From the IMG/VR virus record IMGVR_UViG_3300007609_000025, positions 1 to 53,444 of that record: a DNA stretch of 53,444 bases; one strand, 5' to 3'. Made by a program: the position numbers and the translations under genes. The stretch's first letter is position 1, and each line of letters begins with the position of its first letter. Below are positions 10,891 to 45,481 of this stretch, in pieces. A model generated the notes under the pieces. The model saw only the letters and a list, made by a program, of their open reading frames with translations. It searched no databases and was not told the DNA's origin. This stretch comes from a virus.

Positions 10891-11502
10891 ATGTTACTAC
10901 TAGAACGTAAACTACCATCAACTCCTTCCTTAGTTGCCCACAACGAAGATACGTGTGATGACCCTAAACTATATTTCTCTCCAGAAGAATGTAACTGGAT
11001 TAGATCTTGGGCAGAGTCTAAAACACCTCAGTTTGCCTCAGTAGGTACTGGAGATCAGCACGAGGTTAGGCGTAGTACTCGAGATGTATATTTATACGGT
11101 ATGCCTCGTAATGAACAAACTGATGGCCTATTTAAAAAGATTTTACATCAGGTAGATTATGCTAATACCCGTGCTTTTGATTTTGAGCTTAACGGTATTA
11201 TGCACGATCTACAGATTTTAAAATACACGCATGAGACAAAACAACACTACGACTGGCACATAGATATTAGCGGTGGAGACGCTTATGGCCGTAAAATATC
11301 TTATATAATACAACTAAGTGATGAAAGTGAGTATGAGGGAGGTAATTTAGAAATATTCGATGGCAACTCCCATACAGCGCCTAAAAAACAAGGAAGTGTT
11401 GTAATGTTTCCTAGTTATGTATGTCATAGAGTTTCTCCAGTGACAGCTGGGACTCGCTGGAGCTTAGTAATATGGATACAAGGAACGCAGCATTTTAGAT
11501 AA
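10891..11502 (+). CDS. 2-oxoglutarate/Fe(II)-dependent prolyl-hydroxylase-like oxygenase
   Basis: This is a 203-residue protein with a complete catalytic set: H123-x-D125 (YDWHIDIS), H179 (YVCHRV) and R189 (GTRWSLVIW), plus SYIIQLSDESEYEGGNLEIF, the typical PKHD/P4H-type core. In this family the enzyme hydroxylates a protein or small-molecule carbon using 2OG and oxygen. GAGG lies 6 bases before ATG 10891, and the stop overlaps the start of the Gly-rich adhesin (TAATG). That adhesin contains Pro and many Gly residues, which makes it a candidate substrate, but there is no direct evidence. Confidence 0.8.
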   Translation: MLLLERKLPSTPSLVAHNEDTCDDPKLYFSPEECNWIRSWAESKTPQFASVGTGDQHEVRRSTRDVYLYGMPRNEQTDGLFKKILHQVDYANTRAFDFELNGIMHDLQILKYTHETKQHYDWHIDISGGDAYGRKISYIIQLSDESEYEGGNLEIFDGNSHTAPKKQGSVVMFPSYVCHRVSPVTAGTRWSLVIWIQGTQHFR

Positions 11503-24203: not shown

Positions 24204-24635
24204 ATGAGTTTAATTAAAAACATGATGATAAACGAAAAAGTAGTGGAAGTAGAGTTTCCAGACTCAGACAACTTCTACGTAAGTTTATCATACTTAAGCC
24301 GTGAAAAGCTTTTAAAAATACGCAATCGAGCAATGGTAATCAAGTTTAATAAGCGTAGCCGTCAAAGAGAAGAAGAAATTGATAATGATAAATTTCTTGA
24401 AGAGTACTCTAGAGAAGTTATAAAAGGATGGCGCGGTCTTACCTTACGCGAATTATCTCGTATACTTCCGGTAGAAACGGCAGGACAGGATCTTGAAAAA
24501 GAAATACCTTATTCAGAAGAAGACGCTTTAGAGCTTCTTAGAAATTCTACAATATTTGATCAGTTTGTTACTGACTCTATGAATGACTTTGAAGCTTGGG
24601 AAAATGATCGAGTAGACTCCCAGCAAAAAAACTAA
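24204..24635 (+). CDS. Tail assembly chaperone, short form (gpG-like)
   Basis: This is a 143-residue acidic, helical protein in the place of lambda gpG, between major tail protein and tape measure. Such proteins coat the tape measure before tube assembly. Its last codons contain the frameshift heptamer A AAA AAC (24626-24632) just before TAA. The ribosome site is GAGGGG (24190-24195), which may be masked by the upstream RNA structure. The N-terminus KMMINEKVVEVEFPDSDNFYVSLSYLSREKLLKIRNRAM resembles other siphophage chaperones that bind tape measure. Confidence 0.8.
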   Translation: MSLIKNMMINEKVVEVEFPDSDNFYVSLSYLSREKLLKIRNRAMVIKFNKRSRQREEEIDNDKFLEEYSREVIKGWRGLTLRELSRILPVETAGQDLEKEIPYSEEDALELLRNSTIFDQFVTDSMNDFEAWENDRVDSQQKN

Positions 24636-27900: not shown

Positions 27901-30900
27901 AGCTAATAAAATAAAAAATCTTAGCTCTACTCTAAGTAAAGATTTAAATAACATAACCCAAGACTTTGAAAGAGTATTCGGTCCTGACTCTATATTTAAC
28001 TTGGAAGAGCCTTTTGATAAGGCTAATGAAAGTATAACTGAGTTTCTTGCTAGAATGCAGGGATCTATAAATATCACCCCTGAACTATCTGCTGAGTTAA
28101 GAAAAGCTGAAAATGCAAGCAATCAGCTGGATTCTAGTGCTAAAGGCGTGCTAGGTACTTTTATACTACAAATTAAAGCTTTAGAAGCTCTAAAGAAAGA
28201 AGTTGCTAGGACTGTACGTGACATAAACCTAGACGAATTAAGAACAGCTATAAATGCTGAGATCTCCATAATACAACAAGCACGTAGTAATAGGCAAACT
28301 ACAGCTTCTTTAGCTAAAGAGGAGAGAGACCTATCCTTACAAATATTAGACGCCAACTTACGTACTACAGAAGAAAAAACTAATCAACTAATTAATACTC
28401 TAAATACTAATAGAGAGCTACTAAACATACAAGAGAGTATGTTAGGCTCTCAATTAGAAATATCTAAAGCAAAAATAGAAGCATCAAAAATAGAGCTAGA
28501 TAATGCTAAAAGCCTGCTAGAGTTAGGTAATAGAGGCATACAAAACTCTAAGATAAATAAAGACTTAAAAGAGTTATTTGATATTGTTAATGACGTTGTA
28601 GGGGCTGGAATAGACGTTGCTACTGCAGAAAAAGAGTCAGAACAAGTAGCTATTGAGATAGCTAACTTAGATAAGTTAGCTGCTCTAGATAAGCAAAGAT
28701 TTGCGATAGAGCGAGAAGTAATCGCAGAACGTTCAGCACAGGCTGATCTTCAAAATAAAATGGAGCTCGCGCGTATAAAGATAGATTCCGATAGTAGAGT
28801 TAAAGCACTAGAAGAGCGTAAAAATCAAATAGCTGAAGATCGTCGTATTCTAGAGCTAAGAGATGAACTACAAAAAGAAGAAAGAAAAGCTGCTGATGAG
28901 GATAAAAAACTTCAATTAGAAACATTAAATAAACGAGTAGAAGAAGCTAATAGACTTATAAGTGGTATGAAAAATTTTGTTAGTGAGTATGGTATTGAGA
29001 ATGATGATTTTCTTAGTAGGTACTCTGCAGAGCTTAGAAACTTTATAACGCAGTTAGCAGGCCTTATAAATAGTATTGGCACCATAGGTAACTTAGGGTC
29101 GGGTCAAGCAGTGGTTGCTTCTCAAGGAGCTAGACCAGTAGGCCCAGATGACGGATTTAGAGGCTCAAACGGCTCAGTAACTAACAATTTTGAAAATGTT
29201 AGTATTGAAGGGCTAAGCCCCTCAGATAGTAGCAGCATAGTAGACGGAATATTAAAAACCATAAGACAAAGAGAGTCTAGTAATAGGTACAATGTTACTA
29301 ATTACGCATGGGGGGAAGGCTCTACTGCTAGTGGCGCGTATCAGTTTACTAGAGGCACATGGGCAAGAGAAGCTGCAAAAGCTGGAGTAGGTACTGAGTA
29401 TAGAGACGCTATGAGCGCCCCTGCATCTGTTCAAGATGCAGTGGCAGAATCATATGTTAGAGATATCTTAACAAGAGGAGGCGGACGACTTGAGTCTGTA
29501 CCTACTGAGTGGTATACAGGAAATCTTCAAGGAAACATGAGCGCTGAGGCGCTGAGAGTTAATAGAGGTTTAACTTCTGAACAATACAATACCGGCTGGA
29601 TGAGAGACTTTGAAAAGATTAACGGTAGTCTTACAGCTACAACAGCTAATCTCCAAGATGCTTCAGATTCTTTAAAACGAAACGCTCAAATACAACAAAA
29701 TACTCAAACGGCTTTAAGTAGCTTAGAAAATGATAGATTAAACGCTGCTGAATCTTCTTTGGATAGACAAATAGCTTTAGAAAAGCAACGAGGTAATGCT
29801 GCCGCATCGGCCTCCGAAGCTGCAGCCGCAGGACAAAGTGCTCAAATACAAAATGAGTCCCGACTACTAGACAAACGCGAAGAAGCTAACTCTGCGCAAA
29901 GACAAGCAGAGGAAGCTAACAATAAAAATCGTGAAAGAGCGGTACAGCTAGAAGAAAAACTGGCTAGAGTACGGTTAGCACAAGCTACTTTTGAAGGGCT
30001 TAGCAGGTTTGGTAATCTACTGCAGCGAGTAACAGCTGGAGTAGCGGAAGAGCGTCAAGCCCGTGCCCAAGAGTCTTATAATGAGTCTTTAGAGGCGCAT
30101 GAAGAAAAACTGGAAAGAGTTAAAGAAGCTCGTGATCGAGAGTCTGAGGCAGTTACTGCTTCTATGGATATATTACGTGATAGACGAGAAATAGAACGTA
30201 GCATGTTAGACTCAATAGCTGCAGGGATTGATGGGTACTCAGACTACTTTAAACTTCAAAAAGAATATCTAGATAATATAGATGAAACATCTAATAGTAC
30301 AGAGTCTCTAAAGTTAATTCAGCAAGACAGACTACTTGCTGAGCAAGAAGGGTATTTAGCACAAGTAAGATTAGAGTTTTCTGCTAATGCTCTAGCAGAG
30401 GCTAATTCAAAACTAGAGCGAGCACAAAATAGCGTTGTAAATGAACTAGGGTCTATGATAAGTAGTCTAGGAGATGCGGGACAAAAACTAGTTAGTTTTA
30501 CTACCTTTGTACAAGGCTTAGCTGCAGCTGCGTCTCAAGGAGTAAGTGGAGGCGGAATATTAGGTACTATAGGTCAGTTATTTGGTTTTGACTTTTCAAA
30601 TATATTTAAAAGTATTTTAGCTCCTTTAGACTTACTAACTAGTACTCTTACCGGTAGTTTTAAATCTTCTGCAGCCGCAGTGAGTAGTGTGGCTGAGGGA
30701 GCTGTTAAAGCTCAAGGTGCATTAAGTGGGGTAAGTAAGGTACTATCTGGGTTAGGTTCTATTGTAAGTACTGCTTTTGCAGGCGCTTCACTAGGTGCTA
30801 TGACAGGAGGTTCTACTGTAGAGGCCCAAATAGGAGGTGCTCTTGGTTCAGTAGTAGGCGCTAGTATAGCTGCTGCGGTATCGGGTACTGCTTTTGGCTC

Positions 30901-33900
30901 TGCTCTAGGTAGTTTTCTTGGGCCTATAGGCACAGTTCTTGGAGGGCTTTTAGGAGGCTGGATAGGCGGTTTGCTAGGTGGGGGTTCCAGTAAGTATACT
31001 ACTGCTGAATTTAACATAGCTACTGATAGGGTAAGCGCTGGAGGGGCTCAAGGAAATGCTTTAGAGCCTATTGCTCAATATGCTAAAAGTTTAAACACCT
31101 TATTAGAAGATATTATTGGAGTGAGTAATAGAGCTCGATCTTTCGATGTACTTTTACGTACTAGAGAAGGTGACATAAGGCAACAAGAATTATCGACTAC
31201 AATAAATGGGAGCCAAATTAGAAGGGGCGTTAACTTCAATGATGCTGAGAGCGTATCCAAAACAACCTTTGAGCTGTTATTAAAAGGATTTACTACTGCT
31301 GCCTTTGATGTTAGACAAGCTATTGGAAGACTTGATTTTTCTGATGATATTGAAAAGAACTTAGAAAAAATATCTTTTGCCGCCTCTTTTAGAGAAATTA
31401 TAAACAATATACAAGATCAAATAACATCAAGCTACATAACCCTAGATCAAGAGGTAGACAAAATTGCTGCTACTACAGCAGCTAATATAAATCAAGTAAC
31501 AAATGGATTAGTTGCTGATTTTCAAGATTTAATTACTAGAACAATAGATGTTTTTGGTGAGAACTCTTACCGAGTAGGTCAGTTAGAAAGTTACGGCTCT
31601 AGTCTTTTACTTAGTTATGCAGGATTAGCTGTTAGCGCTGGAGGTGCGGTATCTATAATAGAGCGTGAAGCTGAAGATATGAATAATCTTGCACTAGTAT
31701 TTGCAAGCATTGAGGGAGAGACTAGAGGGTTTAGAGACTCGCTAATACAGTTAGGTACTTCTGCTTCTGAAGCTGATCGTATACTAGAAACAGGTATAGC
31801 CTTAAAAATACAGAAAGTAGCTAAGGACTTTGAAGAGGCTATTGATAAAGCTGTTAACTTATCTAAAAATATAAATAATGAAGTATACGATAGTCTTGAG
31901 GAAATTTTTAAAGCTCAAAGTTTATTAGTTCAAGATGCTCGTTTAGTTCAGTCTACTGTGTCTGGCACTTTTGGTATTATAAGTAAGACAGAAAATTTAA
32001 TTTATAGACAACGCATGAGGTTGATAGCTGAATCTTCTGATGAGCAGCTAATAGCTATTAGAGCTCTTACTGCTGTAACTGCTGAATACTCTGATGCCGT
32101 CACCCAAGCCACAGCACAAGCAGAAATAGCTTCTAGAACCCTATTAGGATTATTTAATACCTCAGAGATACAAAAGTCAGCTAGACGTTCTGAGTCTAGA
32201 CTATCTTTCAACTTTGCTTCTGTAGGCTTAGCTTCAGGAGGCGTAGTGCCTGGAACTAATGCTCAGCAAAATAAAGATTCTGTTCCTGCAATGTTAATGC
32301 CAGGAGAGTTTGTTATAAACAAAAAATCTTCTGAAAAAATAGGATACGACACTCTATACTCTTTAAACTCTGGTAATTTTAATCAAATGGCTGCAGGAGG
32401 TAGGGTAGAAACAGGGCTAAGCGGCGGTGCGTTAACTACAACTGCTACTCCTTCAAACACAAGATCTAGTTTTGCTGCATATGAGTTTGACGGCACAGCA
32501 GCATTTATTTCTTTTGCAGAAGCTGCTAATATATTAACAGACGCTAATGAGGAGTTATATGACCAGTACTTAAATATCTTTAGATCTATAAACTCTAATC
32601 TAGTTCCTGCTCTAGAGTTTACTCAAGATAAACTAACTGAAGGTAATATACTATTAGCGCGTGCAGCTTTTGAGTACTCTACTGGGGTTAGAGATGCAGT
32701 AAGTGTTACTGACTCTCTTAATAAAATTATAGCAGAGACTAGAACTCAAGAAGTACTTCGTCAAGCAGGCCTTGTAGCCTCTATTGATGAGATAGGCAAC
32801 TTTGTAGACGCCTCAGACTCTTTCTTTTTATCTTTGCAATCTCCTAAAGACTCTTTGGTTGAGCAATCTGGCTTATATAAAGAACTGTACACAGCTACTA
32901 ATGAGCTAAATAAGCTATTAGCTCAAGGATCAATAACAACGGATCAGTACAATAGCTCTATTGACGCTTTAAATACTGCTTATACAGCTTCTATAGAGTT
33001 AGTTCGTGAATATAATGAGTTTTTTATAGATCTTAATGACAGTCTAGATGATACAGGAGCTTTAAGCAATGTAAGAGCATTAGTAGCTACCTATGTAAAT
33101 AGCATAGATAGAGTAAGCTATGCTGTACAAGACGGTATTATTGCTACTGAGGACGCATATAAAAAAGAAATTCAAGTAAATACGCTATACAATCAAAGAA
33201 GACTGGCTTTAGTACAAGACTCGACTGAGGAGCAGCTAAAAGTGCTTAGAGATGCTGCTACAACTGCAGAAGACTATGGCGGTGGAATAGGTACTATAGT
33301 AGACTTTACATACTCAGTAGGGGCGGCCACAGAGTTACTTACTAGACAGTTACAAGCTGCGAGTGAGAGTTTTGCTAGTTTTGAAACCTCTTTAGTTGAC
33401 TTTTACAACTCTACACTACAAGCATCTACAGGTTTTGGATCACGCCTAACAAGATCTGTAGAATCTATATTTTTAGAGGCAGGAATTATTTTTGAAGAGT
33501 CATTAAGCGAATTTTTTGGCTCTGTAGGCAACTTTGCTGTTAAAGCACAGCAAGGCTTAATAGGTTTGAATGACTTAGAAACAGCTTTAGGGCAGTTAAA
33601 CTATCAATTAACAGTTAGTGAGTCTATAAATATTGAAACATACAAAACAGGAGTTAGTATACTTCAAACTTCCTTTATTGACTTTGTTAGTACTTTCCAA
33701 GATATGAGAGAAGAGCTTGATAGTGCTAAAGACTCTATGGAATCTTTTAGGTCTAGCCTGTATGACTCGTTTAATTCAGTGGTTAGAGATATTACTAGAC
33801 TACTTGAAGGTATGGTGTCTACGTATAGAACTAACTTTGAAAACTTAAAAGGACTATTTAATTCAGCAGTATCAGATCAAGCCAGTGCTGAGGAAGAACT

Positions 33901-36900
33901 ATATAATACGCTATTTGATGCGCAGAAAGCTTTTGCCGCAGCAGGAGGCAACTTAAGCCAGCATGTAGATAGAATAAATGATATTGTACAAGGACTTGAC
34001 CCTCAATATACTGGATATGCAGGTTTAGACCAGTACTTAACTGACTTAAAATTAGATATAGAATCTGGTACAGCTGCTATAGGCAGTATAGACACTACTA
34101 CGCCTATATCTGAACTAAGAAACAGCCTAGAAGATCAACTACAAAGGCTTTCAGAACTGCAAGCACTACCTGACTCTGCTGATAAGTTTGTTAAGATAAG
34201 CAGAGCTCTTTCTACTATAACAGATTTAGAGTCACAAATTAGCGGTACTACAAATACTACAGATAGCTTAAAAGAAGCGGCATTGGCACTAGTTGGAGTA
34301 GAAAAAGAACTTAACTTAAACAACACTACTGAGGGTCTTAGAAATGTAGACCTTACTTTAACAGAGATACAAGAAGATCTACTAAAGCGTGCAGTGGATG
34401 CTCGTGATGCTTATAATGATGCAAACTCTGTATTAGACGGGTATAATGCTGCTTTAGCAGATAATACTGTTTATATTGACGGACTGGCTGATGCTACTTT
34501 AAATGTCAATCAAAAAATAGAGCTATTTACAGATAAACTAGCTAGTGTTAGTGATGAGTTTGCTAATGTACAAGCAGCCATAGATAGTGTTACTACTGCA
34601 AACTTATCTGACGCGCTAAGTAACATTGTATTTAGTCAAGATGCGTATAATATAGCAGTTGAGCCTTTTTCTAACTCTGCTGAAGTATTAGAGCAGCTAA
34701 CTGCTTCTATCGCTGAGTACCAAAACATAGTAGACGCTAAAACTGCTTATGAAGAGTTGTATGGTGCTATTGATATTGCTAGTAACACTCTACCTTTAGA
34801 AGAGTTTCAAGAGTTAAATACAGAGCTTCAATTCTTAGAGAATAACTTGACGTCAATATTACAGGCTATGGATCCAACTGCTATGGGCCTAGATAGCCTT
34901 GAGACAGTATTTAAAACTTTCGTAACTGATGCAATAGCGCTACTAGAAACGCCTATACAACTAGACATAGTTGAGCCTAGTTTAAACACTGATTTACAGC
35001 AATATACTCTAAACACTACTAGTACAGAAAGTAACCAAGTTGCGTTCGGCACTAGTGCCACTAATAGCCTGTTGCAGTCTATTCTTACCGATGGACTAGG
35101 TGTGCGCTCCCCAGGTTACTTATATTATAACAATCTTTACTTAGAAGATATTAGAAAAATACTGTCAGAGCTGTTAGTAGTATCAGGAGGAGTTGTTCCT
35201 GCACTAAATGATATTGCAGCGCCTGTAGCAGGAGAGTCGTCTGTCTCTTCTGGTACCTCTACTGTGTATGCAGGGCCAAATGTTTCTAATTTAAGCGGGC
35301 TAACAGGTCAGTTGTTTTCTGTGACCGAGCCTATTGCTAAGCCTGCTGACTATTTTTATATAGTAGTACCTCAGATTATTAGATTTGACCAGCTTATTGA
35401 TATAGTTAAGGCTGAGTTAGACATATATGATTTTGCAACTATAGTTAAAGTATCACATACTATAGATACTTGGATTGATATAGTAAAAAGAACTACTAAC
35501 TTTGATGAGTGGTTAGATGTAGTTAAACGTAATACTACCTTTAACGAATGGCTAAACATAGTAAAGATAGACACAAAATTTACTGATTGGGTAACTATTG
35601 TAAAACAGGACCATGACTATAGAACTTGGTTTAATCAGCCGACACCATTAGATACTAACTACTTAAAATGGTTTATACCTAAGCCAGAAAATACTAGCTG
35701 GGGTATGTGGTTCTCTGCGCCTACTTTAACTGAAACTGGTTTTGCAGACTGGTTTACATGGCCTCCTACTACTAAGTGGGAAACTAGCGGGTATGATTGG
35801 TTTGATATCTCAAGAAGAGAGATTAGGTATATAGACTTTTTTGATGTTAGAGAAAAGATAGATATAAATACTTTTGTAGCTTCTATACCAGTAACTGCTG
35901 AGACATTCTTTAATATTAGCACTATGACTACCACTTTTGACGATTGGTTTTATATATCACCTAAGGCGGGTATTGGTTTTTATGACTTCTTTACAGGCCT
36001 AGTAACAGTAGACACCAAAGCTTCTGATTGGTTTGTACTAGACTCTCCTATAGACTTGGTACCTTCTGATCTGTACACTGTAAGCTCTCCTGTTGAGTTA
36101 TCAGCTTATTCACTGTTTAAGCCTAAAGTAGAAAATATTGAAGCATCTGCTCTTTACTCAATACAAAGCCCATTATTACTGAACCCTAACGAAGTACTAG
36201 CTATAAATGAGCTGGCTAAGCTACCTCTTAGTTATGTTGATATATTTGAGCTAGGAACTACTAGACTAGAAATTACAGATATGTTTGAAAACTACTCTGT
36301 TAACGGCGGTTTTGACTTTGTTAGAGCTAGAATAGACAGTAGCGATATATTTGATATAGAAGCGTTTAGACAGAGCGGTTTTGAAAGTAAGCTAAAAATA
36401 GATCCTTCAGATTTATTTACTGAAGTCGATAACAATTGGTGGGTACCTGAAAAAACTGTTGGTATAACTCCAGATACCTTTTTTAGCCCTTTAACAGGGG
36501 TAGCTCCTTACGACTTTTTCTTTGTAGAACCTACCTTATTAGCTACTAATTTTTATGACTGGTTTGATGCTGCTGATAAAATAGATATTTCTAATGTATT
36601 TGAGCTATTTCAGCCAATACCTTTAGATTTACGAAATGCTTTTGACCTTTCTAATACTAGAGAGCCATTAGCTCCTAGCCAAGTATTTACTTTATCTCCT
36701 AATCCTACCGTTGTTCAAGCATCTCAAGTATTCAGTATAGGGGCCAAATATAGACTACAAGGTAATGAGATACTTGAATTTATACCTTATGAAATATTAG
36801 CTAGTGAATTTATAGATTTTTCTTATTTAAGAAGCAATCCTTATCAAGTCACTGCTATAGATTTATTTACTTTACTAGGTACTGTTCCTGTAAATCTGTT

Positions 36901-39895
36901 TAATTACTTAGAAGTAATAGGTAGAGCTACTTTTGCTGCTAAAGATGTTATAAATGTTGCAAAGAGCACTTTTTATGGGCAAGACTTAATATCTATTCAA
37001 CCAGTAAACCTAACTTCTGATAGCTTATTTACTGTTAATACTCCTACAGCGCTACCAGGAGCCTCTTTCTTTTCTATAAGTGCGCCTACTGCTCTGCCTG
37101 CTGCAGCATATATAGGGGTTGATGAGAATGAAAAACTTGAGTACAGGTTCGATCAAATACTTAACATTATTGGAGATCCTGTACCTATAGCACTAAATGA
37201 TGTTTTTTCAAACTTTAGTTATAGAGAGGGATTTGCTTGGACTAAGTACGCATTAGCAGTAGAAGACGTTGTAGATTTAACTGTATTAACTACTAGCGGA
37301 TTAGTAGATAAACCAATTCTTTCTGTTAGCGATCTTATCGGTAACTATGCTTTTGGTGAATTAAAGTTAGAAGATAAAATAGATATTGACTATGATAGTC
37401 TATTTAACCCTATAGTGCAAAAAAATTCTGACTTCTACACATGGTTTATCAAAGATAAGTTATCCACTACGTTTGCAGATTGGTTCTATATGAATGAAGC
37501 TACTAAACTTGATCTAGGGGACTTGGTTAATAATACTGTACCTTTAGATTATAGAGAAGTATTTGATTGGAACAATACAACTAAGATTAAACCTGCTGAG
37601 TGGGAGCAAGTATTCTCCTTTGACGCTACTAGAAAAATAACTGTAAGAGTATATGATATAATGGTTATCGAACCTGCAAGTTATGATGCAGATACCCTTA
37701 TAAACCTTAATAAAAGTACTGTTGATGTGTCTCAATTAATTACTATAGGCCGTAAAATGAACCGCACTGCAGGTTCACTTATTGACATAACACAGCCTCT
37801 TAGAGTAAGTGCAAGTAACTTATTAGAAATAGTCTCTCCGCTACTAGTTGACCTAAATGAAGGAGTAACATTTGAAAAAGCTGTAGTAGACGGTTCTGAG
37901 ATATTTACTCCTGTAGCCTCTGAGCTGTCTGGTATTAACTTTTTTAACCCAACTCAGTTTTCTATTACAGGAGCTGCGTTCTTTACCCCTATAGCAACTG
38001 CTATAGACGCTAACGATTTGTTTAATATAAGTAAAAAAGTACCTATAGATGTTACGGCTACATTTGAATCTGATTTTATGAAGATGGTAGATGCTATAAA
38101 TGTCTTTAAAACCGAAGCAATACCTTACTTAAAAACAATAAATGATAGTTTAAATGATCAACCAAACGACAATGCTTTAGCATTATATGACCAAATTTGG
38201 GATTACTATCAGAACACATTTTTAAAGAGCTACTATGACCAATGGACTCCTAAAATAGCTAAGCTTGCTGATATAGCCAAATCAGTATCTTCCAGTGTGG
38301 ACCTTCAAAAAGAAATTAGGACCACTCTAAATGCTATATGGAATTGGCTTCAGGTATTTTTAGAGCCTAAAATAAAAAGTATAGACAGTTCTTTAGATAG
38401 TATTGACAATAAGTTAACTGACACAAATAACTTTTTAGAAAGTATTGACAATAAGGTAACTGACCTAAATAACTTTTTAGAAAGTATTGACAATAAGTTA
38501 ACTGATACAAATAACTTTTTAGAGACTATAGACAGTTCTTTAGATAGTATGGACGATAAGTTAACTGACACAAATAACTTTTTAGAGACCATAGACAGTT
38601 CTTTAGACAGTATGGACGATAAGTTAACTGACACAAATGGCTTTTTAGATACCATAGACAGTTCTTTAGATAGTATGGACGATAAGTTAACTGACGCAAA
38701 TGGCTTTTTAGATAATATAAAAGGGGTACTAGATTCTATAGAGCTTCATATGTTTAACATCGAAGGTAATACTGCTTGGTTAGACGATATTGAAAAAGTA
38801 TTACGTGAGTCCATATTCTTAAAAGCTCTTGGCGACTTACAAGATATAAATAAAGTTAGGTATACTTATCCAGGAGCTACTACTACTTATGTGCCTGGAT
38901 ACAAGACAGGAGGCATGGTAGACGGCCCCGGTACTGGAACTAGTGACTCTATACCTGCTAGACTTTCAAAAGGCGAATTTGTATTAACTGCTAATACTGT
39001 TTCTAAGCTTGGACCAGAATTTTTAAATACATTAAATACTACTGGAAGGCTAGACTCTGCCCTATCCACTTTCGGGATACGCGGAGATACGCAGATGGCC
39101 CATATTAATGATACAGAAGCTAATTTACTAAAAAGTATTGGAGGCTCAGGCACGACTAATTCTGCTACAGGACTAAAACAGTACTTTTTTGATGGATATA
39201 GAAATATCTTAGGAGAAACAGCTGCTTCTGCTTATTCTTCAGGGTTTAATGCTATTGCTAACACTAATATAGGGTTTGAAGCTTACAGACCAGAAAGAGT
39301 AAGTTCTAACTCTAACTGGGATACAGCGAACTATGCACCTAATAGTTTTGCTAAACAGGCTATTGTTTATGCAGCACAATATATTGCAGCTTCTAGAAAC
39401 GGAAAAAACTGGGGCGTTGGAGATGCAGCCTCAGCAGTAGGAGATCTATGGTTTGAGTATGACAGACCTAATAGAGTTCAGTTTAATAGGGGTAATAGAT
39501 TTAATAACTCATCTCCTTCTACTAGTAATTGGGACTCTATAATAAATAGGGTAAAAGGCCTATATCCTGCTTTTGCTAACGGAGGTATTGTTTCAGGACC
39601 TGGAAATGGTACTAGCGACTCTATTTTGGCTATGCTATCTGACGGAGAGTATATTGTTAGAAATTCTTCTGTTGACAATGTGGGGGTAGATACGTTAGAC
39701 TATATTAATAATAATGGGGCTCTACCTACAGGCGACACTAACATTGAAGTCAACATAATAAACAAAGGTCAGCCAGTAGAAACTGAGACGCAACCTGAAG
39801 TTAAAATAGTAAACGGCAAAATGGTGGTAGATGTAGTACTTAAAGACTTAAGAACTAATGGCCCTATAAAACGTAGCATAAAGAAGATTAAATAA
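24992..39895 (+). CDS. Giant tape measure protein (4967 aa)
   Basis: The protein sets tail length and passes through the envelope at injection. It starts at TTG 24992, one base after the chaperone stop, with AAAGG upstream. Parts in order: helical N-terminus; hydrophobic segments ~72-95, ~473-505 and ~613-656; coiled coils ~840-1350; lysozyme/transglycosylase-like domain ~1414-1545 (RQRESSNRY, likely E1428, and ASGAYQFTRGTW); coiled coil ~1560-1760; Gly/Ala hydrophobic stretch ~1889-2003; GG-V-DSVPAML-PGEF motif ~2412-2460; helical region with a duplicated module; ~60 degenerate 14-residue aromatic repeats ~3465-4358; coiled-coil repeats ~4464-4576; two more GG...DSI...GE[FY] motifs ~4637 and ~4861. 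By the lambda rule (~0.15 nm per residue) the tail would exceed 700 nm. Confidence 0.92.
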   Translation: MANANSNININVKAKGAQRSAKDVNAVADALGKLGVRSDKASTSTDGLSRSQTRLGQASAASGRQFSSQAAGLGGLVGAYAGAAATIFALQQAFSALNKAAQVENIVRGTQTLAAEVGESGNKIIKSIQEITDSQLTLGEAAEKANLALSTGFSTKQIEGLAFVANQASRALGRNLSDAFERVVRGSAKLEPELLDELGIFTRLDPAVRKYAKEINKSVNELTEFERRQAFVNEVIEEGTRKFSAIDTSAPSAQKSLEKLSTALINIGTQVGGLLANTLAPLADFFSKDITGALSIFGIVAAQVSRVGFRELSGAAQGVNTRLSSFRANLLESGSQSDAARFTLSALNKTLMDQESIIAKGTKKQKEVAASIFAIGKQGKLSASDLEDFSRVTKEQIKLQKESQAFAANEIKALQAKGVTTTAAKNKLADYKDAIVASTAAQAKLNRSLALSETALATVSSSARRTSASITILTGAVKTATAVINVFSRVISGVFIFTALLPVIESLIGVFPKLEAQITNIKNAFLDARDAQKSYETGIRSLSNTAGISGISKEYETLGRSAREAAATQEEVLTFLTKIGKVELPAISSVIAGIKGVSVQAVDANNAVANLQGGLSLLAIAGVGVAAVALKTFAVPMGAVIAGVAGLALGVEALIAKFTSYTPVVAGFFEKVLSFVGVGATALTTTEAQIASVEGKIEELKSSLADAKTLDEYLGIRQFIDSLESALPLIADGSIAIRQFAAELSKSTGLNIEDISRNLVESSDGVLTINNIAVGLRNAQGQIQKTTGAAKDLLETSIGFSTVFLNASSELTNFNVSSRELIQTVESLASAEVNLRDKLKGVSSELAVIAREEEEAVRARDALIKSIEGTDYSSVEAQRLINLDDRTKELNLQRRQLEATRREVEAQLKVDEDRLAILKNIGDELNKQEKTYEKILQSISAEIKAFEDVNLQGVFDMESLTSAETSFGVAANKIKNLSSTLSKDLNNITQDFERVFGPDSIFNLEEPFDKANESITEFLARMQGSINITPELSAELRKAENASNQLDSSAKGVLGTFILQIKALEALKKEVARTVRDINLDELRTAINAEISIIQQARSNRQTTASLAKEERDLSLQILDANLRTTEEKTNQLINTLNTNRELLNIQESMLGSQLEISKAKIEASKIELDNAKSLLELGNRGIQNSKINKDLKELFDIVNDVVGAGIDVATAEKESEQVAIEIANLDKLAALDKQRFAIEREVIAERSAQADLQNKMELARIKIDSDSRVKALEERKNQIAEDRRILELRDELQKEERKAADEDKKLQLETLNKRVEEANRLISGMKNFVSEYGIENDDFLSRYSAELRNFITQLAGLINSIGTIGNLGSGQAVVASQGARPVGPDDGFRGSNGSVTNNFENVSIEGLSPSDSSSIVDGILKTIRQRESSNRYNVTNYAWGEGSTASGAYQFTRGTWAREAAKAGVGTEYRDAMSAPASVQDAVAESYVRDILTRGGGRLESVPTEWYTGNLQGNMSAEALRVNRGLTSEQYNTGWMRDFEKINGSLTATTANLQDASDSLKRNAQIQQNTQTALSSLENDRLNAAESSLDRQIALEKQRGNAAASASEAAAAGQSAQIQNESRLLDKREEANSAQRQAEEANNKNRERAVQLEEKLARVRLAQATFEGLSRFGNLLQRVTAGVAEERQARAQESYNESLEAHEEKLERVKEARDRESEAVTASMDILRDRREIERSMLDSIAAGIDGYSDYFKLQKEYLDNIDETSNSTESLKLIQQDRLLAEQEGYLAQVRLEFSANALAEANSKLERAQNSVVNELGSMISSLGDAGQKLVSFTTFVQGLAAAASQGVSGGGILGTIGQLFGFDFSNIFKSILAPLDLLTSTLTGSFKSSAAAVSSVAEGAVKAQGALSGVSKVLSGLGSIVSTAFAGASLGAMTGGSTVEAQIGGALGSVVGASIAAAVSGTAFGSALGSFLGPIGTVLGGLLGGWIGGLLGGGSSKYTTAEFNIATDRVSAGGAQGNALEPIAQYAKSLNTLLEDIIGVSNRARSFDVLLRTREGDIRQQELSTTINGSQIRRGVNFNDAESVSKTTFELLLKGFTTAAFDVRQAIGRLDFSDDIEKNLEKISFAASFREIINNIQDQITSSYITLDQEVDKIAATTAANINQVTNGLVADFQDLITRTIDVFGENSYRVGQLESYGSSLLLSYAGLAVSAGGAVSIIEREAEDMNNLALVFASIEGETRGFRDSLIQLGTSASEADRILETGIALKIQKVAKDFEEAIDKAVNLSKNINNEVYDSLEEIFKAQSLLVQDARLVQSTVSGTFGIISKTENLIYRQRMRLIAESSDEQLIAIRALTAVTAEYSDAVTQATAQAEIASRTLLGLFNTSEIQKSARRSESRLSFNFASVGLASGGVVPGTNAQQNKDSVPAMLMPGEFVINKKSSEKIGYDTLYSLNSGNFNQMAAGGRVETGLSGGALTTTATPSNTRSSFAAYEFDGTAAFISFAEAANILTDANEELYDQYLNIFRSINSNLVPALEFTQDKLTEGNILLARAAFEYSTGVRDAVSVTDSLNKIIAETRTQEVLRQAGLVASIDEIGNFVDASDSFFLSLQSPKDSLVEQSGLYKELYTATNELNKLLAQGSITTDQYNSSIDALNTAYTASIELVREYNEFFIDLNDSLDDTGALSNVRALVATYVNSIDRVSYAVQDGIIATEDAYKKEIQVNTLYNQRRLALVQDSTEEQLKVLRDAATTAEDYGGGIGTIVDFTYSVGAATELLTRQLQAASESFASFETSLVDFYNSTLQASTGFGSRLTRSVESIFLEAGIIFEESLSEFFGSVGNFAVKAQQGLIGLNDLETALGQLNYQLTVSESINIETYKTGVSILQTSFIDFVSTFQDMREELDSAKDSMESFRSSLYDSFNSVVRDITRLLEGMVSTYRTNFENLKGLFNSAVSDQASAEEELYNTLFDAQKAFAAAGGNLSQHVDRINDIVQGLDPQYTGYAGLDQYLTDLKLDIESGTAAIGSIDTTTPISELRNSLEDQLQRLSELQALPDSADKFVKISRALSTITDLESQISGTTNTTDSLKEAALALVGVEKELNLNNTTEGLRNVDLTLTEIQEDLLKRAVDARDAYNDANSVLDGYNAALADNTVYIDGLADATLNVNQKIELFTDKLASVSDEFANVQAAIDSVTTANLSDALSNIVFSQDAYNIAVEPFSNSAEVLEQLTASIAEYQNIVDAKTAYEELYGAIDIASNTLPLEEFQELNTELQFLENNLTSILQAMDPTAMGLDSLETVFKTFVTDAIALLETPIQLDIVEPSLNTDLQQYTLNTTSTESNQVAFGTSATNSLLQSILTDGLGVRSPGYLYYNNLYLEDIRKILSELLVVSGGVVPALNDIAAPVAGESSVSSGTSTVYAGPNVSNLSGLTGQLFSVTEPIAKPADYFYIVVPQIIRFDQLIDIVKAELDIYDFATIVKVSHTIDTWIDIVKRTTNFDEWLDVVKRNTTFNEWLNIVKIDTKFTDWVTIVKQDHDYRTWFNQPTPLDTNYLKWFIPKPENTSWGMWFSAPTLTETGFADWFTWPPTTKWETSGYDWFDISRREIRYIDFFDVREKIDINTFVASIPVTAETFFNISTMTTTFDDWFYISPKAGIGFYDFFTGLVTVDTKASDWFVLDSPIDLVPSDLYTVSSPVELSAYSLFKPKVENIEASALYSIQSPLLLNPNEVLAINELAKLPLSYVDIFELGTTRLEITDMFENYSVNGGFDFVRARIDSSDIFDIEAFRQSGFESKLKIDPSDLFTEVDNNWWVPEKTVGITPDTFFSPLTGVAPYDFFFVEPTLLATNFYDWFDAADKIDISNVFELFQPIPLDLRNAFDLSNTREPLAPSQVFTLSPNPTVVQASQVFSIGAKYRLQGNEILEFIPYEILASEFIDFSYLRSNPYQVTAIDLFTLLGTVPVNLFNYLEVIGRATFAAKDVINVAKSTFYGQDLISIQPVNLTSDSLFTVNTPTALPGASFFSISAPTALPAAAYIGVDENEKLEYRFDQILNIIGDPVPIALNDVFSNFSYREGFAWTKYALAVEDVVDLTVLTTSGLVDKPILSVSDLIGNYAFGELKLEDKIDIDYDSLFNPIVQKNSDFYTWFIKDKLSTTFADWFYMNEATKLDLGDLVNNTVPLDYREVFDWNNTTKIKPAEWEQVFSFDATRKITVRVYDIMVIEPASYDADTLINLNKSTVDVSQLITIGRKMNRTAGSLIDITQPLRVSASNLLEIVSPLLVDLNEGVTFEKAVVDGSEIFTPVASELSGINFFNPTQFSITGAAFFTPIATAIDANDLFNISKKVPIDVTATFESDFMKMVDAINVFKTEAIPYLKTINDSLNDQPNDNALALYDQIWDYYQNTFLKSYYDQWTPKIAKLADIAKSVSSSVDLQKEIRTTLNAIWNWLQVFLEPKIKSIDSSLDSIDNKLTDTNNFLESIDNKVTDLNNFLESIDNKLTDTNNFLETIDSSLDSMDDKLTDTNNFLETIDSSLDSMDDKLTDTNGFLDTIDSSLDSMDDKLTDANGFLDNIKGVLDSIELHMFNIEGNTAWLDDIEKVLRESIFLKALGDLQDINKVRYTYPGATTTYVPGYKTGGMVDGPGTGTSDSIPARLSKGEFVLTANTVSKLGPEFLNTLNTTGRLDSALSTFGIRGDTQMAHINDTEANLLKSIGGSGTTNSATGLKQYFFDGYRNILGETAASAYSSGFNAIANTNIGFEAYRPERVSSNSNWDTANYAPNSFAKQAIVYAAQYIAASRNGKNWGVGDAASAVGDLWFEYDRPNRVQFNRGNRFNNSSPSTSNWDSIINRVKGLYPAFANGGIVSGPGNGTSDSILAMLSDGEYIVRNSSVDNVGVDTLDYINNNGALPTGDTNIEVNIINKGQPVETETQPEVKIVNGKMVVDVVLKDLRTNGPIKRSIKKIK
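29232..29625 (+). other. Peptidoglycan-cleaving domain inside the tape measure
   Basis: Residues ~1414-1545 of the tape measure read ILKTIRQRESSNRY ... STASGAYQFTRGTW ... AVAESYVRDIL ... VPTEWYTGN, the pattern of lysozyme/transglycosylase-like domains with E1428 as likely catalytic acid. Such domains open a local hole in the cell wall during DNA injection. Confidence 0.72.
35384..38065 (+). repeat. About 60 degenerate 14-residue repeats in the tape measure
   Basis: The protein segment can be cut into about 60 units of mostly 13-15 residues, each starting with [DENS]-[WLFV]-[FIL], for example DWFYISPKAGIGFY, DFFTGLVTVDTKAS, DWFVLDSPIDLVPS, DLYTVSSPVELSAY. A Pro or charged turn often follows, then a hydrophobic residue before the next unit. 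DNA identity between units is low, so the array is old. The first five or so units are W-I-V-K-rich (EWLDVVKRNTTFN, EWLNIVKIDTKFT). Confidence 0.75.
38381..38716 (+). repeat. Near-identical coiled-coil repeats (42- and 63-bp units)
   Basis: Tandem DNA repeats encode MDDKLTDTNNFLET-type 14-residue units, four of them preceded by IDSSLDS to make 21-residue units. Both lengths are whole heptads (two or three), so copy changes keep the coiled-coil register. High DNA identity means the copies are recent. Confidence 0.9.
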
Positions 39896-40266: not shown

Positions 40267-42063
40267 ATGTCTTCTAGACTGTACGATTTTACTTTAACAC
40301 TTGCTAATACTTCTTCTCTAGAGGCAGGTATGTCTATATATGGAACCTCTTCTAATGCTTTAGGAGAAGTAATCTCAGTTACTGGTAGTAATGCAAAAGT
40401 AAAAGTTAGTAATGTTTCTCATTACTTTCAAGTTGGAGAGACTATACTATCTAATAGCAGTAGCGTAGATATCACCTATGAATCTCAAAGATATACAAGT
40501 ACCCCCGTAGTAATATTTTCTAATACCTACTCTATAGACGGCACTACAAACACTTTTTCATTGCCAGTATCAGCGGACTATAAGTCTGAAATTCAAATAT
40601 ATGCTGATAATATATTAGTGCCTCAAAGTTTATATGAGTTTCCTAGTACTGCTTTAGACAATCTAGGTGTAGACTTTAACTTAGCTCAGATTGCTACTTT
40701 TCCTGCAGCTAATGACACTGCAGTAATAACTGAGGCACTATTTCCTGATACTTCTATAACCTCTTTAGACTTAGTAGTTGCTAGAGGACTATCGAATGTT
40801 AACTCTTTTATAGCTTCTGCTACGCCAAAAGAGCAAACTAATATATTAACAACAACTGTATCTGATATTACCCCCTCAAACTATATTGCAGTAAATAACA
40901 GTTTTGAGCAAGAGCCTATAGTTAGACTGTACTCTATATATTATCCTGGCAATTGGTACCCTCCTACTGCTAATGGCAATCCTAATGACTCTTCTTTAGG
41001 TAGCGCGTGGCCTTACCCTTTTCCTTTACGTTATGCTCAGATTTTTGGAGAAGATTTTAACATACCTAACTATAGTATTACTTTCGCCAATAATAGTTAT
41101 AGAGCATTTCCTATAAACTACCCTGGTATTAGTATATCTTCTGATGGCAGTGTAGGAGAGCTAAGTTTAGAGCTTAGTAGTATTGATTTTACTATTGTGT
41201 CTTTAATAGAGAATCCTAACCTAATAGGTTATAATAATACTTCTTCTGTTTCTGCATATGTAAACGGGGACTTAGTTACTAATATTGATCCTCGAACAGT
41301 GCCTGGAAATGCCTTATTTGATTCTAGTATTGTAGATCTTAGAGGTGGTCAGAATATTGCTTTTGATTATGATACTACTATTTCTTTAGGAGAAGAGTGG
41401 GTAAGTACTCTAAAAGATTCTAGAGACCTACTAGGCGCTGTAGTAGAAATAAAAACTATATTTGCGTCTATGTTACAATTTTGGCCTGAGTACTCTAGGA
41501 TTGTTTCTATATCTGATAATATAATTACTTTAGATAGTAGTGCTGTATATAGAGTAGGAGATGTTGTTAAAGCAAATAGTACTAGCGATGAAAAAACAAT
41601 AGCCGCAGTATACCAAGACAATAGAATTAAGTTACAAGAAAGTGACTACTCTAGCGCTACCATAGGCGACTCTTTATTTATAGTTAATCAAAATGCAGAT
41701 GAAAATGCCTATGTTGAGAATAAATTCATTATTACTAAGATGAACAGCTATGATGATAATACAGTAAATTTCAACTTGTCAAATAGAACTACTAACCTTC
41801 TTGACACGCTACCTAAGCGTAAATTTTATAGAGGAACTTGTCCTTGGCAATATAAAGGCACTGAATGTAAATACCCTGCTTCTGGTTCTGGTACTATACC
41901 TAGCACCTTTCCTGAAAAAACTGCTAATGGGTACTTTACAGCTAATAATGCAGAAACACAAGATCCTAAGCTAGATGTCTGCTCTAAAAGTCTAAGTGCG
42001 TGTAGACTAAGAAATAACAGCCAAAACTTTGGTGGATTTATAGGTGTTAGTGATGAGATTTGA
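40267..42063 (+). CDS. Minor tail protein L-like with four-cysteine C-terminus
   Basis: This is a 598-residue protein. The C-terminal ~230 residues follow the gpL-like pattern and contain C525 (GTCPWQYKGTEC), C534, C572 and C579 (LDVCSKSLSACRLRNN). Four such cysteines bind an iron-sulfur cluster in lambda gpL, so the same is likely here. The N-terminal ~370 residues are an additional beta-rich region not present in short L proteins (lambda L is ~230 residues), with YYPGNWYPPTANGNPND and other Pro/Asn-rich strands. It is coupled to M upstream and overlaps the K-like gene by 11 bases. Confidence 0.75.
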   Translation: MSSRLYDFTLTLANTSSLEAGMSIYGTSSNALGEVISVTGSNAKVKVSNVSHYFQVGETILSNSSSVDITYESQRYTSTPVVIFSNTYSIDGTTNTFSLPVSADYKSEIQIYADNILVPQSLYEFPSTALDNLGVDFNLAQIATFPAANDTAVITEALFPDTSITSLDLVVARGLSNVNSFIASATPKEQTNILTTTVSDITPSNYIAVNNSFEQEPIVRLYSIYYPGNWYPPTANGNPNDSSLGSAWPYPFPLRYAQIFGEDFNIPNYSITFANNSYRAFPINYPGISISSDGSVGELSLELSSIDFTIVSLIENPNLIGYNNTSSVSAYVNGDLVTNIDPRTVPGNALFDSSIVDLRGGQNIAFDYDTTISLGEEWVSTLKDSRDLLGAVVEIKTIFASMLQFWPEYSRIVSISDNIITLDSSAVYRVGDVVKANSTSDEKTIAAVYQDNRIKLQESDYSSATIGDSLFIVNQNADENAYVENKFIITKMNSYDDNTVNFNLSNRTTNLLDTLPKRKFYRGTCPWQYKGTECKYPASGSGTIPSTFPEKTANGYFTANNAETQDPKLDVCSKSLSACRLRNNSQNFGGFIGVSDEI

Positions 42064-42424: not shown

Positions 42425-43007
42425 GCCTTTGCTTCAGTTTTTTGAGGTAGAGGAAATAGTGATATTTGCTAGTGACTATAGTGACATAATATCTTGCCTA
42501 CTAAACCAATTTCCTTATTTTTATAAATTTTATACTTCTATAGACTCTAAGAGTAAATTCCAGGACATATGCCTAATAGAAGACAGACGCCCTATTAACA
42601 GCTCCTTATACTCTAAAAAGTTAACCAAAGATACTGAGGTATTTTTAGCTCCCTTAATATTCGGTAATCAAATGTCTTACTCAGAATACTACTCTGAGTT
42701 ATCTTCTAGTTTTATATACCCCTTATTTGGGTTATCTACTGCAAGCTATGAAACTTCAGACTTTGAAGGGCTAAATAAAAGAATAATTGACTCTTCTTTA
42801 TTCGGTAATGCCGAGCAAATATATGATGTAAATATACGAACGCAAAACGACTCTTTTGGTGCTTTACGAATAAATAATAATGCTAACTTGCCTGTACCTA
42901 TAATATACGGTATGACAAGAGCTTCAGGCACTATAATAAATACCTATATTAAAAGTTATAGAGCGGACCCAGATATATTTAGCGTTAAAGACGTAATGGT
43001 AAAATGA
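42387..43007 (+). CDS. Tail tip assembly protein I-like
   Basis: This is a 206-residue protein between K-like and J-like genes, the place of lambda gpI. The first ~90 residues (VTVKISEPLLQFFEVEEIVIFASDYSDIISCLLNQFP ... TKDTEVFLAPLIFG) suggest the ubiquitin-like fold of gpI N-termini. The last part, NLPVPIIYGMTRASGTIINTYI, is the typical passage that precedes J. It overlaps the upstream gene by 38 bases and the next by ATGA, so translation is tightly coupled. Confidence 0.68.
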   Translation: MNTSKKVTVKISEPLLQFFEVEEIVIFASDYSDIISCLLNQFPYFYKFYTSIDSKSKFQDICLIEDRRPINSSLYSKKLTKDTEVFLAPLIFGNQMSYSEYYSELSSSFIYPLFGLSTASYETSDFEGLNKRIIDSSLFGNAEQIYDVNIRTQNDSFGALRINNNANLPVPIIYGMTRASGTIINTYIKSYRADPDIFSVKDVMVK

Positions 43008-45481
43008 CAGATATTAATCCTGCTACTTATGTAGATTTAAGTTTTGGACAAGACAAGGCTTACTCAAAAAACTTAACTAAGTTAAATACAGAAGTTCTAT
43101 TTACTCATGTAGGCTTAGCAGAAGGGCCTGTATACAGAATTAACCCTAATGGTCCTCAAGATATAAGAGTAGAAAACAAGTTTATAGACGATTTAATAAA
43201 TGAGTTTGATGAGCCTGATCCTTATGTATTTCAATACGTAAGCTCAACTGGCTCAGTTGAACAGCCTGTACTACAACCTTTTGGGTCTGAAGTAATTAAC
43301 AGCGTACGGTTTTCCTCTCCCACAGTATTAAAATCAGGACAAACAGGCGGCGTAGAGACAGGAGTTCCTCAAGCTAACTTACAGTTTTTTCCTACTTCTG
43401 CTGAAATAAATGATACTTTTATTGATACTATAGTAGTAAAATTCTCTGTGGACGAACTATATAGAGAAGTTACTGAGAACTCAAACTCCCAAGATTATCA
43501 AGAACAAAGACTTGATATACGTATATTAGTACATCCTTTCTCAGAAACATCAAACATAGATAATTATGTTGCTGCTGTACAAAAGTCTTTTAGCGCTGTA
43601 ATAACTTTTCCTACTATCTTAGATATACCAATAACTATACCTAAAACTAACTTAAGTACTAATGGTTATAGATTAAGTGTTCTAAAAGCGTCTGATGACT
43701 CTTCAGACTCTAGCATATCTTCAGAAGTCTCTTTATTAGGTTTTGATGAGATAGCGCATGACAGTTTTTCTTACCCTAAAACAGCTACTATAGGCTATGC
43801 TTTAAAGGCTACTAATTTTAGAAATCAGATACCTGACTTTACCTCTATGGTAAAAGGCAGTATCGTAAAAGTACCTTCTAATTTAGATCAGCCTATATTA
43901 GATAATGGAGAGGTAGATTGGAGAGAGTTAGAGGTTAGCTCTCCTAGTGTTACAGGTTACAAACTACAATCAGATCCAGATACGGTACTATACGAAGATA
44001 ATCCTGTCATATTCAAAGGTATTTGGGACGGCTCTTTTAAGCTAGACTGGACTCAAGATGCAGTATGGCAAATATACGACCTACTAACAGACAAATTAGG
44101 TATTAGTGAGTCTGAAATTAATAAATTTAACTTTTACTCAGTATCACAGCTTACTCATGGGGTAGACCCTAATACCGGTAAATTTTTTGGAGTACCCGCG
44201 TATGCTGATGGGACATTCAGACATAAGCCTAGAGGCCAGTTTACTAGTATTCTTGAGAATCAGGTAGGGGAGTCATCTAGTACTCAAATAAATGAAAGAA
44301 GATTTATATCAGATATATACATATCTAACCAAATAGATGTATTTGAACTTATAAGCAAGCTTGCTTCCTCTATTAGATGCGTATTAAGTATTTCAGGTAA
44401 TAAAATAGAGCTTATACCTGACGCACCAGGAGCAATCCCAGAACAAATGTTTAACGACGCAGATACCACTAGCGTATCTTTTAGTGGTATTAGACGGGAT
44501 GAAAGAGTGACTGCTGTTGAAGTGGTCTTTACTAATGGGGCTAAGAATTTTAGTAGAGATGTAGTTAGAATAGAGAACCCTGACGCAGTAAATGTTCAAG
44601 ATAGAATTATTACTATAGAACTGCTAAATTGTTCAAGAAGAAGTCAAGCAGCTAGATTTGCTCAATATATTTTAGCCTCTAATAGGTATATAAAAAGAAA
44701 AGTTAGCTTTAGTACTGCTACAGGTTGTGAACATTTATACCCAGGATCTATAATATCTTTAGCTACCCAAACTGCTACAAATATACTAGGTTATAACGGT
44801 ATTGTGCAGGAAGATAGTAATAATTCTAACACAAGGATCAAGCTTCAACACATAGCATTTCCTAGACTGTCTAATAATGTTTTTAACTCTAATACTGCTC
44901 CTTTAGTTTTAAGACACTTTAGTAACCGTAGCTCAAAATCAGAACTATATTTATTAAGTAACACATCCTATACTCTTGCTGCAACAGGCAATACATATAA
45001 CTCTATTGATAATTTTGATTATGTAGAGGTCCAGCCTATTGCTAAATGGAATTATGATATAAAAGAGTTTGAAAACTTTAGCACATTTGACCCTATTAGC
45101 ATTCCTGAATCTAAAGATTTATGGGCTTTAGGAGAAATTACCCCCTCAGACTACTATACCTCAGATGCTGGTAAGTTATATAGAGTAGATAGTATTAACT
45201 TGAGAGAAGAAGGCACCACTGAGCTTACTGCTAGCGAGTACATAAGTAATGTGTATATAGACAGTGAAACTTTAATAAACTATGATCCTCTAGCTATAAG
45301 AACTATAAGTAACCCCTTTGCTACCCCTCCTCCCCCTTTAGTAGGACTATCTACTCAATTCGTAACTACTTCTGGAGGTAATGTAATACCCAACCTTTAC
45401 GTAAATATAACTGGTTCTACAGGCCTTTATTCTACTCAAGTTGCCTTTGTACCTTTAACCAGTTTTGTACCCTTGCTTTAG
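43004..45481 (+). CDS. Tail tip J-like host-contact protein, N-terminal part
   Basis: This is an 825-residue protein. The pattern AEGPVYRINPNGPQDIRVENKFIDD, SVDELYR, SPSVTGYKLQ and WQIYDLLTDKLGISESEIN, then the INERRFISDIYISNQIDVFELISKLASSIRCVLSISGNKIELIPD block, matches the core of lambda gpJ-type tail tip proteins, which form the trimeric hub and central spike. It ends with a short fibronectin-like stretch (IRTISNPFATPPPPLVGLSTQF). The rest of a typical J protein seems to be in the next gene. A Pro-rich hinge lies near residue ~770. Confidence 0.78.
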   Translation: MTDINPATYVDLSFGQDKAYSKNLTKLNTEVLFTHVGLAEGPVYRINPNGPQDIRVENKFIDDLINEFDEPDPYVFQYVSSTGSVEQPVLQPFGSEVINSVRFSSPTVLKSGQTGGVETGVPQANLQFFPTSAEINDTFIDTIVVKFSVDELYREVTENSNSQDYQEQRLDIRILVHPFSETSNIDNYVAAVQKSFSAVITFPTILDIPITIPKTNLSTNGYRLSVLKASDDSSDSSISSEVSLLGFDEIAHDSFSYPKTATIGYALKATNFRNQIPDFTSMVKGSIVKVPSNLDQPILDNGEVDWRELEVSSPSVTGYKLQSDPDTVLYEDNPVIFKGIWDGSFKLDWTQDAVWQIYDLLTDKLGISESEINKFNFYSVSQLTHGVDPNTGKFFGVPAYADGTFRHKPRGQFTSILENQVGESSSTQINERRFISDIYISNQIDVFELISKLASSIRCVLSISGNKIELIPDAPGAIPEQMFNDADTTSVSFSGIRRDERVTAVEVVFTNGAKNFSRDVVRIENPDAVNVQDRIITIELLNCSRRSQAARFAQYILASNRYIKRKVSFSTATGCEHLYPGSIISLATQTATNILGYNGIVQEDSNNSNTRIKLQHIAFPRLSNNVFNSNTAPLVLRHFSNRSSKSELYLLSNTSYTLAATGNTYNSIDNFDYVEVQPIAKWNYDIKEFENFSTFDPISIPESKDLWALGEITPSDYYTSDAGKLYRVDSINLREEGTTELTASEYISNVYIDSETLINYDPLAIRTISNPFATPPPPLVGLSTQFVTTSGGNVIPNLYVNITGSTGLYSTQVAFVPLTSFVPLL

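Follow-up and report, generated by a model that had tools for sequence, protein, structure and literature searches.

A tandem array of 62 aromatic units in the giant tape measure protein of an uncultured virus with a T5-type tail tube

How tape measure proteins count the rings of the tail tube is a long-standing question, since most tapes are coiled coils without distinguishing features. The IMG/VR record of 53,444 bases analyzed here in full (hereafter, the window), which comes from an uncultured bacterial virus, raises this question in a concrete form: the tape of this virus carries a long row of short, aromatic-marked units, and we ask whether these units could be marks that correspond to the rings.

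Upstream of the tape gene, the window encodes a terminase, a T5-like portal, head proteins, a tail terminator, a T5-type tube protein and a tail chaperone and, downstream, minor tail L-like and J-like hub proteins; as in T5-like phages, the tube protein comes first, then the chaperone, the tape and the distal tail proteins. The major tail protein (22772-24061, plus strand) is homologous to pb6, with two fused tube domains, and is accordingly assigned to the T5-type, trimeric ring formers; it shows 30% identity over 96-98% to its counterparts in T5-like phages, and its profile matches the T5 pb6 and DT57C structures in the PDB, although it lacks the C-terminal Ig-like domain. It is followed by a tail assembly chaperone-like protein (24204-24635, plus strand; phrog_313), and the central fibre or hub protein is lambda J-like (43004-45481, plus strand; phrog_31). 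No sheath gene was found in the window, so that the virus appears to be a siphovirus whose tube is T5-type and whose tip is lambda-type. Matches to the tube protein and the tape N-terminus, at 26-40% identity, occur in about 900 phage records, most of them of T5-like phages. The region 15492-45481, which combines T5-type tube genes with a lambda J-type hub, is a mosaic, and no close relative of the hub was detected among the named phages of the collection searched. Near the tail fibre genes, three ORFs within 8019-10141 and 11502-13772 are paralogs that match phrog_19111, a family of unknown function.

The gene between the chaperone and the distal tail genes is an open frame of 4967 codons with a TTG start (24992-39895, plus strand, as are all its segments given below). 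Its identification as a tape measure protein in the earlier note is borne out by matches to PHROG tape families at both the N and the C ends (phrog_3779 at 2.3e-40, and others), by tblastn matches in 905 phage records, and by its position after the tube and chaperone genes. The tapes of the five T5-like matching phages that we examined are about 1000-1230 aa long. Inside the window tape, there is a weak similarity to a transglycosylase-like domain (29255-29455; PF06737, below the Pfam cut-off, with E = 0.012 for the whole protein and 4.8e-4 for the segment alone), whereas the equivalent site in the tape of an array-bearing relative, G1 (L127; IMG/VR 3300035670_000578), is occupied by a different muralytic domain, Phage_lysozyme (PF00959, 6e-18). 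Tape residues 301-2000 (25892-30991) are only about 22-40% identical between these two viruses, with many indels, yet the tapes are nearly equal in length (4967 and 4985 aa in the window and G1, respectively). A motif that normally closes tape proteins is present in three copies, DSVPAMLMPGEFV (32276-32314), DSIPARLSKGEFV (38945-38983) and DSILAMLSDGEYI (39617-39655), as if several tapes were fused; the tape of another relative, L009, contains a single copy.

Residues 3452-4355 of the tape (35345-38056) could be cut by hand into 62 units, with zero residues left over. The median unit is 13-14 aa long: 22 units consist of 14 residues and 20 of 13 (42/62 altogether), the remainder spanning 11-22 residues. 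The consensus is D-[LW]-F-[TD]-I-x(4-6)-[LI]-D-[AF]-S, where position 1 is D in 27 of the 62 units, position 2 is L, W, V or F in 49, position 3 is F in 33 and F, I, L, V or Y in 57, position 5 is mostly I, V, L, P or F, and the fourth-last residue is L, I, T or V in 51. The regularity is interrupted by two triads of consecutive 21-22-residue units, namely, units 24-26 (22, 22 and 21 aa; 36278-36472), which align with the single triad of shorter arrays in relatives, and units 44-46 (22 aa each; 37199-37396).

The array is statistically certain. Autocorrelation of the aromatic residues (F, W, Y) gives z = 8.8 at lag 13, 5.9 at lag 14, and 4.2 and 5.5 at lags 26 and 27, compared to 1.7 at lag 11 and -1.6 at lag 18, and the 13/14-lag pattern is absent from the other stretches of the tape tested by the same approach. 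A circular profile built from the window array alone counts 64-65 units in the window; relatives kept out of its training score 81-266 bits, and shuffled sequences 10.1 bits or less. Conversely, when the profile is built from a relative that is 24% identical, the window reaches 47.7 bits, against 3.6 ± 1.3 for shuffles. Comparing the array with itself by blastp yielded nothing off the diagonal. The composition stands out as well, with 5.5% proline (1.1% upstream), 2.4% tryptophan (0.15%), and 14% F/W/Y (6% in the rest of the tape). The earlier note had described about 60 degenerate aromatic units at 35384-38065 (residues 3465-4358), without a heptad pattern and without a recognizable family. 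Both the repeat and the approximate count hold, and the limits, correctly placed within the tape, have been refined; hydropathy at lag 7 is significant in other parts of the tape but not in the array, and no homolog of the array was found in phages, Pfam, PHROGs or the PDB. The proposed unit start, [DENS]-[WLFV]-[FIL], is enriched, with 33 matches compared to 16.4 ± 3.6 in shuffles, but is too strict because, taken literally, it finds only these 33 starts, which is why the circular profile was used.

Five further viruses in IMG/VR carry the array, one with 62 units and four with 42-44, in addition to a near-identical contig (IMGVR_UViG_3300026097_000040) in which the array is 100% identical; an assembly artefact is thereby ruled out. 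In G1, the 62 units are in register with those of the window at 51% identity. The arrays of L132, L133 and L134 consist of 599-600 aa and that of L221 of 606 aa; L133 (tape of 4420 aa) has 42 units by hand division, L132 and L133 have 42-44 depending on the profile, and L134 (tape of 4585 aa) has 36-44, the lower counts reflecting partial matches. One more contig, L225, contains part of an array. Thus, copy number varies among relatives, from 62-66 units by profile in arrays of the window type to 42-44 in the shorter ones. The tail modules of these viruses are colinear with that of the window and 45-85% identical, and the tube protein is far better conserved (77-85% identity) than the array (24-51%). 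The first 190 residues of the minor tail L-like protein (40267-42063) can be aligned with every array-bearing relative but not with L009. This virus, the nearest tube-protein relative in the scan concerned (55% identity), has a tape of 1491 aa that lacks the array, although its N and C ends match the window tape. Among 36 stretches retrieved by a DNA-pattern scan for DWF, only those in L094 and L120 contained the array; scans of genome contigs yielded no relative of it, nor did a tblastn search of about 50,700 phage records, in which no named phage matched. The array thus appears to be confined to a defined clade of uncultured viruses.

Neighbouring units are the most alike (z of 6.1-7.4 in four arrays, 5.4 and 2.9 in others), with little excess at lag 2, as expected from single-unit duplication. 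The difference between 62 and 42-44 units amounts to one block of about 21, and there are two triads of long units in the window, 20 units apart, and one in L133. When the C-terminal half of the L133 array is compared with the window, units 42-62 score 284 (111 ± 18 with shuffled unit order) and units 22-43 score 193 (103 ± 18; best shuffle, 203). Within the window, units 23-43 match units 43-62 with a score of only 161 (109 ± 19; maximum, 174), so that the case for duplication depends on the L133 scores. The simplest reading of these sequences is a single duplication of a block of about 21 units that would have preceded the split between the window virus and G1, the alternative, loss of a block in the shorter arrays, being less simple. 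No DNA-level repeat was found within the array, which therefore appears to be old. Between the window and G1, there are only small indels over 904 aa at 51% identity, and the signature positions are 53-73% identical compared to 29-48% for the other positions. L132 and L133 show no indel in 599 aa at dS of 0.38, with dN/dS of 0.06, a figure that covers the array, the comparison of the stretch upstream having been discarded as out of register. Unit number thus seems to have been frozen after the growth of the array. Directly 3' of this apparently frozen array lies a recent, true variable-number repeat, namely, a heptad tract with DNA-level tandem periods of 42/63 nt (14/21 aa; 38392-38712), the equivalent of which in G1 has three 7-aa deletions.

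The scan for J-type hubs revealed sibling viruses whose tapes lack the 13-14-residue array. In six of them (L238, L240, L245, L247, L250 and L263), the tape contains instead an ungapped repeat of exactly 27 residues, with z up to 31, about 11-33 units and almost no slips; G006 (tape of 3946 aa) has about 21 such units and G011 (4685 aa) about 43. Ungapped 27-residue tandem repeats are present in the giant sibling tapes L308 (14560-16245), L309, L313 and L314. The 27-residue arrays precede the same C-terminal tape domain as the 13-14-residue array and share with it the J-type hub and, where the contig reaches that far, the T5-type tube: a tube protein of this type is encoded on the same contig in G006 and G011 but was not found on the other contigs with 27-residue arrays, which are fragments. 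The units themselves differ from those of the window in their fixed length and near absence of proline and tryptophan, and there is no detectable sequence similarity between the two kinds.

Judging from its proline, its many beta-branched residues and a hydrophobic moment that peaks near 110-130 degrees rather than at 160-180 degrees, the array looks non-helical. The abundance of beta-branched and aromatic residues, along with the scarcity of helix formers, would suit a beta-solenoid or a stack of amphipathic hairpins, as suggested in the earlier note. We nevertheless consider such folds very unlikely. The units, at 11-22 residues, depart from the near-constant coil length of a beta-solenoid, the peak of the moment does not fit, and there is no relative in the PDB. 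AlphaFold models of the array, with pLDDT of 26-28 and pTM of 0.13-0.18, are not usable, which is a weak test because the alignments were shallow (6 and 4 sequences); they lend no support to a solenoid, even though AlphaFold is reported to over-predict solenoids for repeats (PMC11795689).

The lengths of the units suggest a different role. The ring height in T5 is 40.6 Å (PMC5717097), and in DT57C, 40 trimeric rings with a rise of 41.8 Å surround a trimeric tape (PMC10713586). The short units average 13.67 residues in the window and 13.39 in L133, and the sums of two units peak at 26-28. By arithmetic, 13.5 residues extended at 3.0-3.1 Å per residue span about 41 Å, and 27 residues of alpha helix span 40.5 Å; given that both equal one ring, one unit per ring appears to be the best mechanism. 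We infer that, within a T5-type trimeric tube, the array would be extended and non-helical and that each 13-14-residue unit (D-aromatic-F-x-I ... L-D-x-S) would span approximately one ring. One unit of each copy of the tape, which by analogy with DT57C may be trimeric, would face one ring, such that the number of units would set how many rings assemble along the array part of the tail. In the sibling viruses, the 27-residue units would match one ring if helical; these units give a mixed helix and strand signal, so that 27 x 1.5 Å is an idealization. Growth of the array, and hence of the row of marks, would have proceeded by tandem duplication of single units and one copying of the block of about 21 units.

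We tentatively prefer this reading, that is, an extended stretch with one unit per ring and the units setting ring number, and regard it as quite possible albeit short of an even chance. As raised in the earlier note, the correspondence between unit and ring is in keeping with the T5-type rise and gains strength from the 27-residue siblings and from the lack of odd/even alternation among the units, which would follow if each unit met an identical ring, but it is not demonstrated. The agreement of both 13.5 x 3.0-3.1 Å and 27 x 1.5 Å with the ring leaves two helical window units per ring compatible in length, an arrangement that the missing alternation speaks against; unit length variation and the triads break a strict ruler; and no contact between the tape and the tube wall was seen in DT57C (PMC10713586). 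The broader proposition that phages with T5-type tubes evolved at least two unrelated tape repeats, one of extended 13.5-residue aromatic units and one of 27-residue units, both tuned to one ring of about 41 Å, such that the tape would be a literal ruler lengthened by copying its marks singly or in blocks, seems to us rather unlikely as it stands.

The array could, alternatively, be a flexible non-helical spacer, its periodicity a relic of tandem duplication without any registration with the rings. The similarity of adjacent units and their variable length would be natural for a spacer, and the aromatic repeat of TP901-1 can be replaced by alanines (PMC5099701), which also speaks against the ring reading. 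What makes a spacer unlikely, in our view, is the conservation of the signature positions while the rest of the unit drifts, the lack of indels between L132 and L133 and their small size between the window and G1, and the exact 27-residue period that sibling arrays keep, with little slippage, over as many as 33 units. The units might instead be short linear motifs to which the tail assembly chaperone binds; the chaperone would coat the tape and keep it soluble until displaced by the tube, and would set the spacing of the units. Aromatic tape repeats have been proposed as chaperone-binding sites in phage p2 (cited in PMC3271669 and PMC5099701), and a chaperone-like gene adjoins the window tape gene; however, L009, with its array-less tape, has a chaperone gene too (52% identical), and no feature of the chaperone has been shown to match the unit, so that we regard this role, too, as unlikely. 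The chances appear slimmest for a function after ejection, whereby aromatic segments of the distal tape would become inserted in the host envelope and contribute to the channel for the DNA. The array belongs to the last third of the tape, which should point to the tip; membrane insertion and muralytic activity have been attributed to the tapes of the T5 family (PMC5717097), and the window tape contains the weak muralytic-like domain, but the net charge of the array, -40 to -61, is unusual for membrane insertion.

If one unit indeed corresponds to one ring, tail length could be read from the sequence in whole rings. With 62 units of 41.8 Å each, the tail of the window virus would measure about 813 nm and that of L133 about 695 nm, compared to about 677 and 602 nm, respectively, if the tape spanned 1.36 Å per residue, the DT57C value. 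With two sibling lineages that share a tube type and have countable repeats of 13.5 and 27 residues, rings per unit can be predicted directly, and the idea of a ruler with marks becomes testable given that relatives carry shorter or differently spaced rows. Even should the match to the ring be coincidental, the array represents a well-defined family of aromatic tape repeats that is in none of the libraries used here. The 13-14-residue unit, its signature, the T5-tube context, the copy-number difference of a whole block and the 27-residue sibling arrays appear to be new, in that we did not find them in the open-licence literature.

Among known systems, the giant tape of phages P23-45 and P74-26 (5002 aa) is similar in size and accompanies a trimeric two-domain tube protein in a tail of nearly 1 µm; unlike the window tape, it contains RNA polymerase and metallopeptidase domains, and the parts of the sources available mention no such array (PMC10034513, PMC10770324). 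The pb2 tape of T5 and DT57C has the same place in the gene order and the same tube type, and its N-terminal stretch is 36% identical to the window tape, but the DT57C tape, a coiled coil of 1227 aa without the array, is four times shorter. The idea of marks on the tape stems from the literature on aromatic tape repeats with 11 or 11-11-18 spacing (PMC3271669, PMC5099701), namely, the Trp/Phe repeats of Clostridium prophages, Staphylococcus phages, lactococcal p2 and TP901-1. Like the window array, these consist of tandem units marked by W or F at fixed positions, vary in copy number between relatives, and have a spacing proposed to provide the marks; no sequence relationship between the two was found. 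The window array differs from them in its period of 13-14 residues, not 11 or 18, in its D-aromatic-F-x-I signature in place of a single W or F, in its proline-rich, not helix-like composition, and in its setting, a 4967-aa tape with a T5-type trimeric tube.
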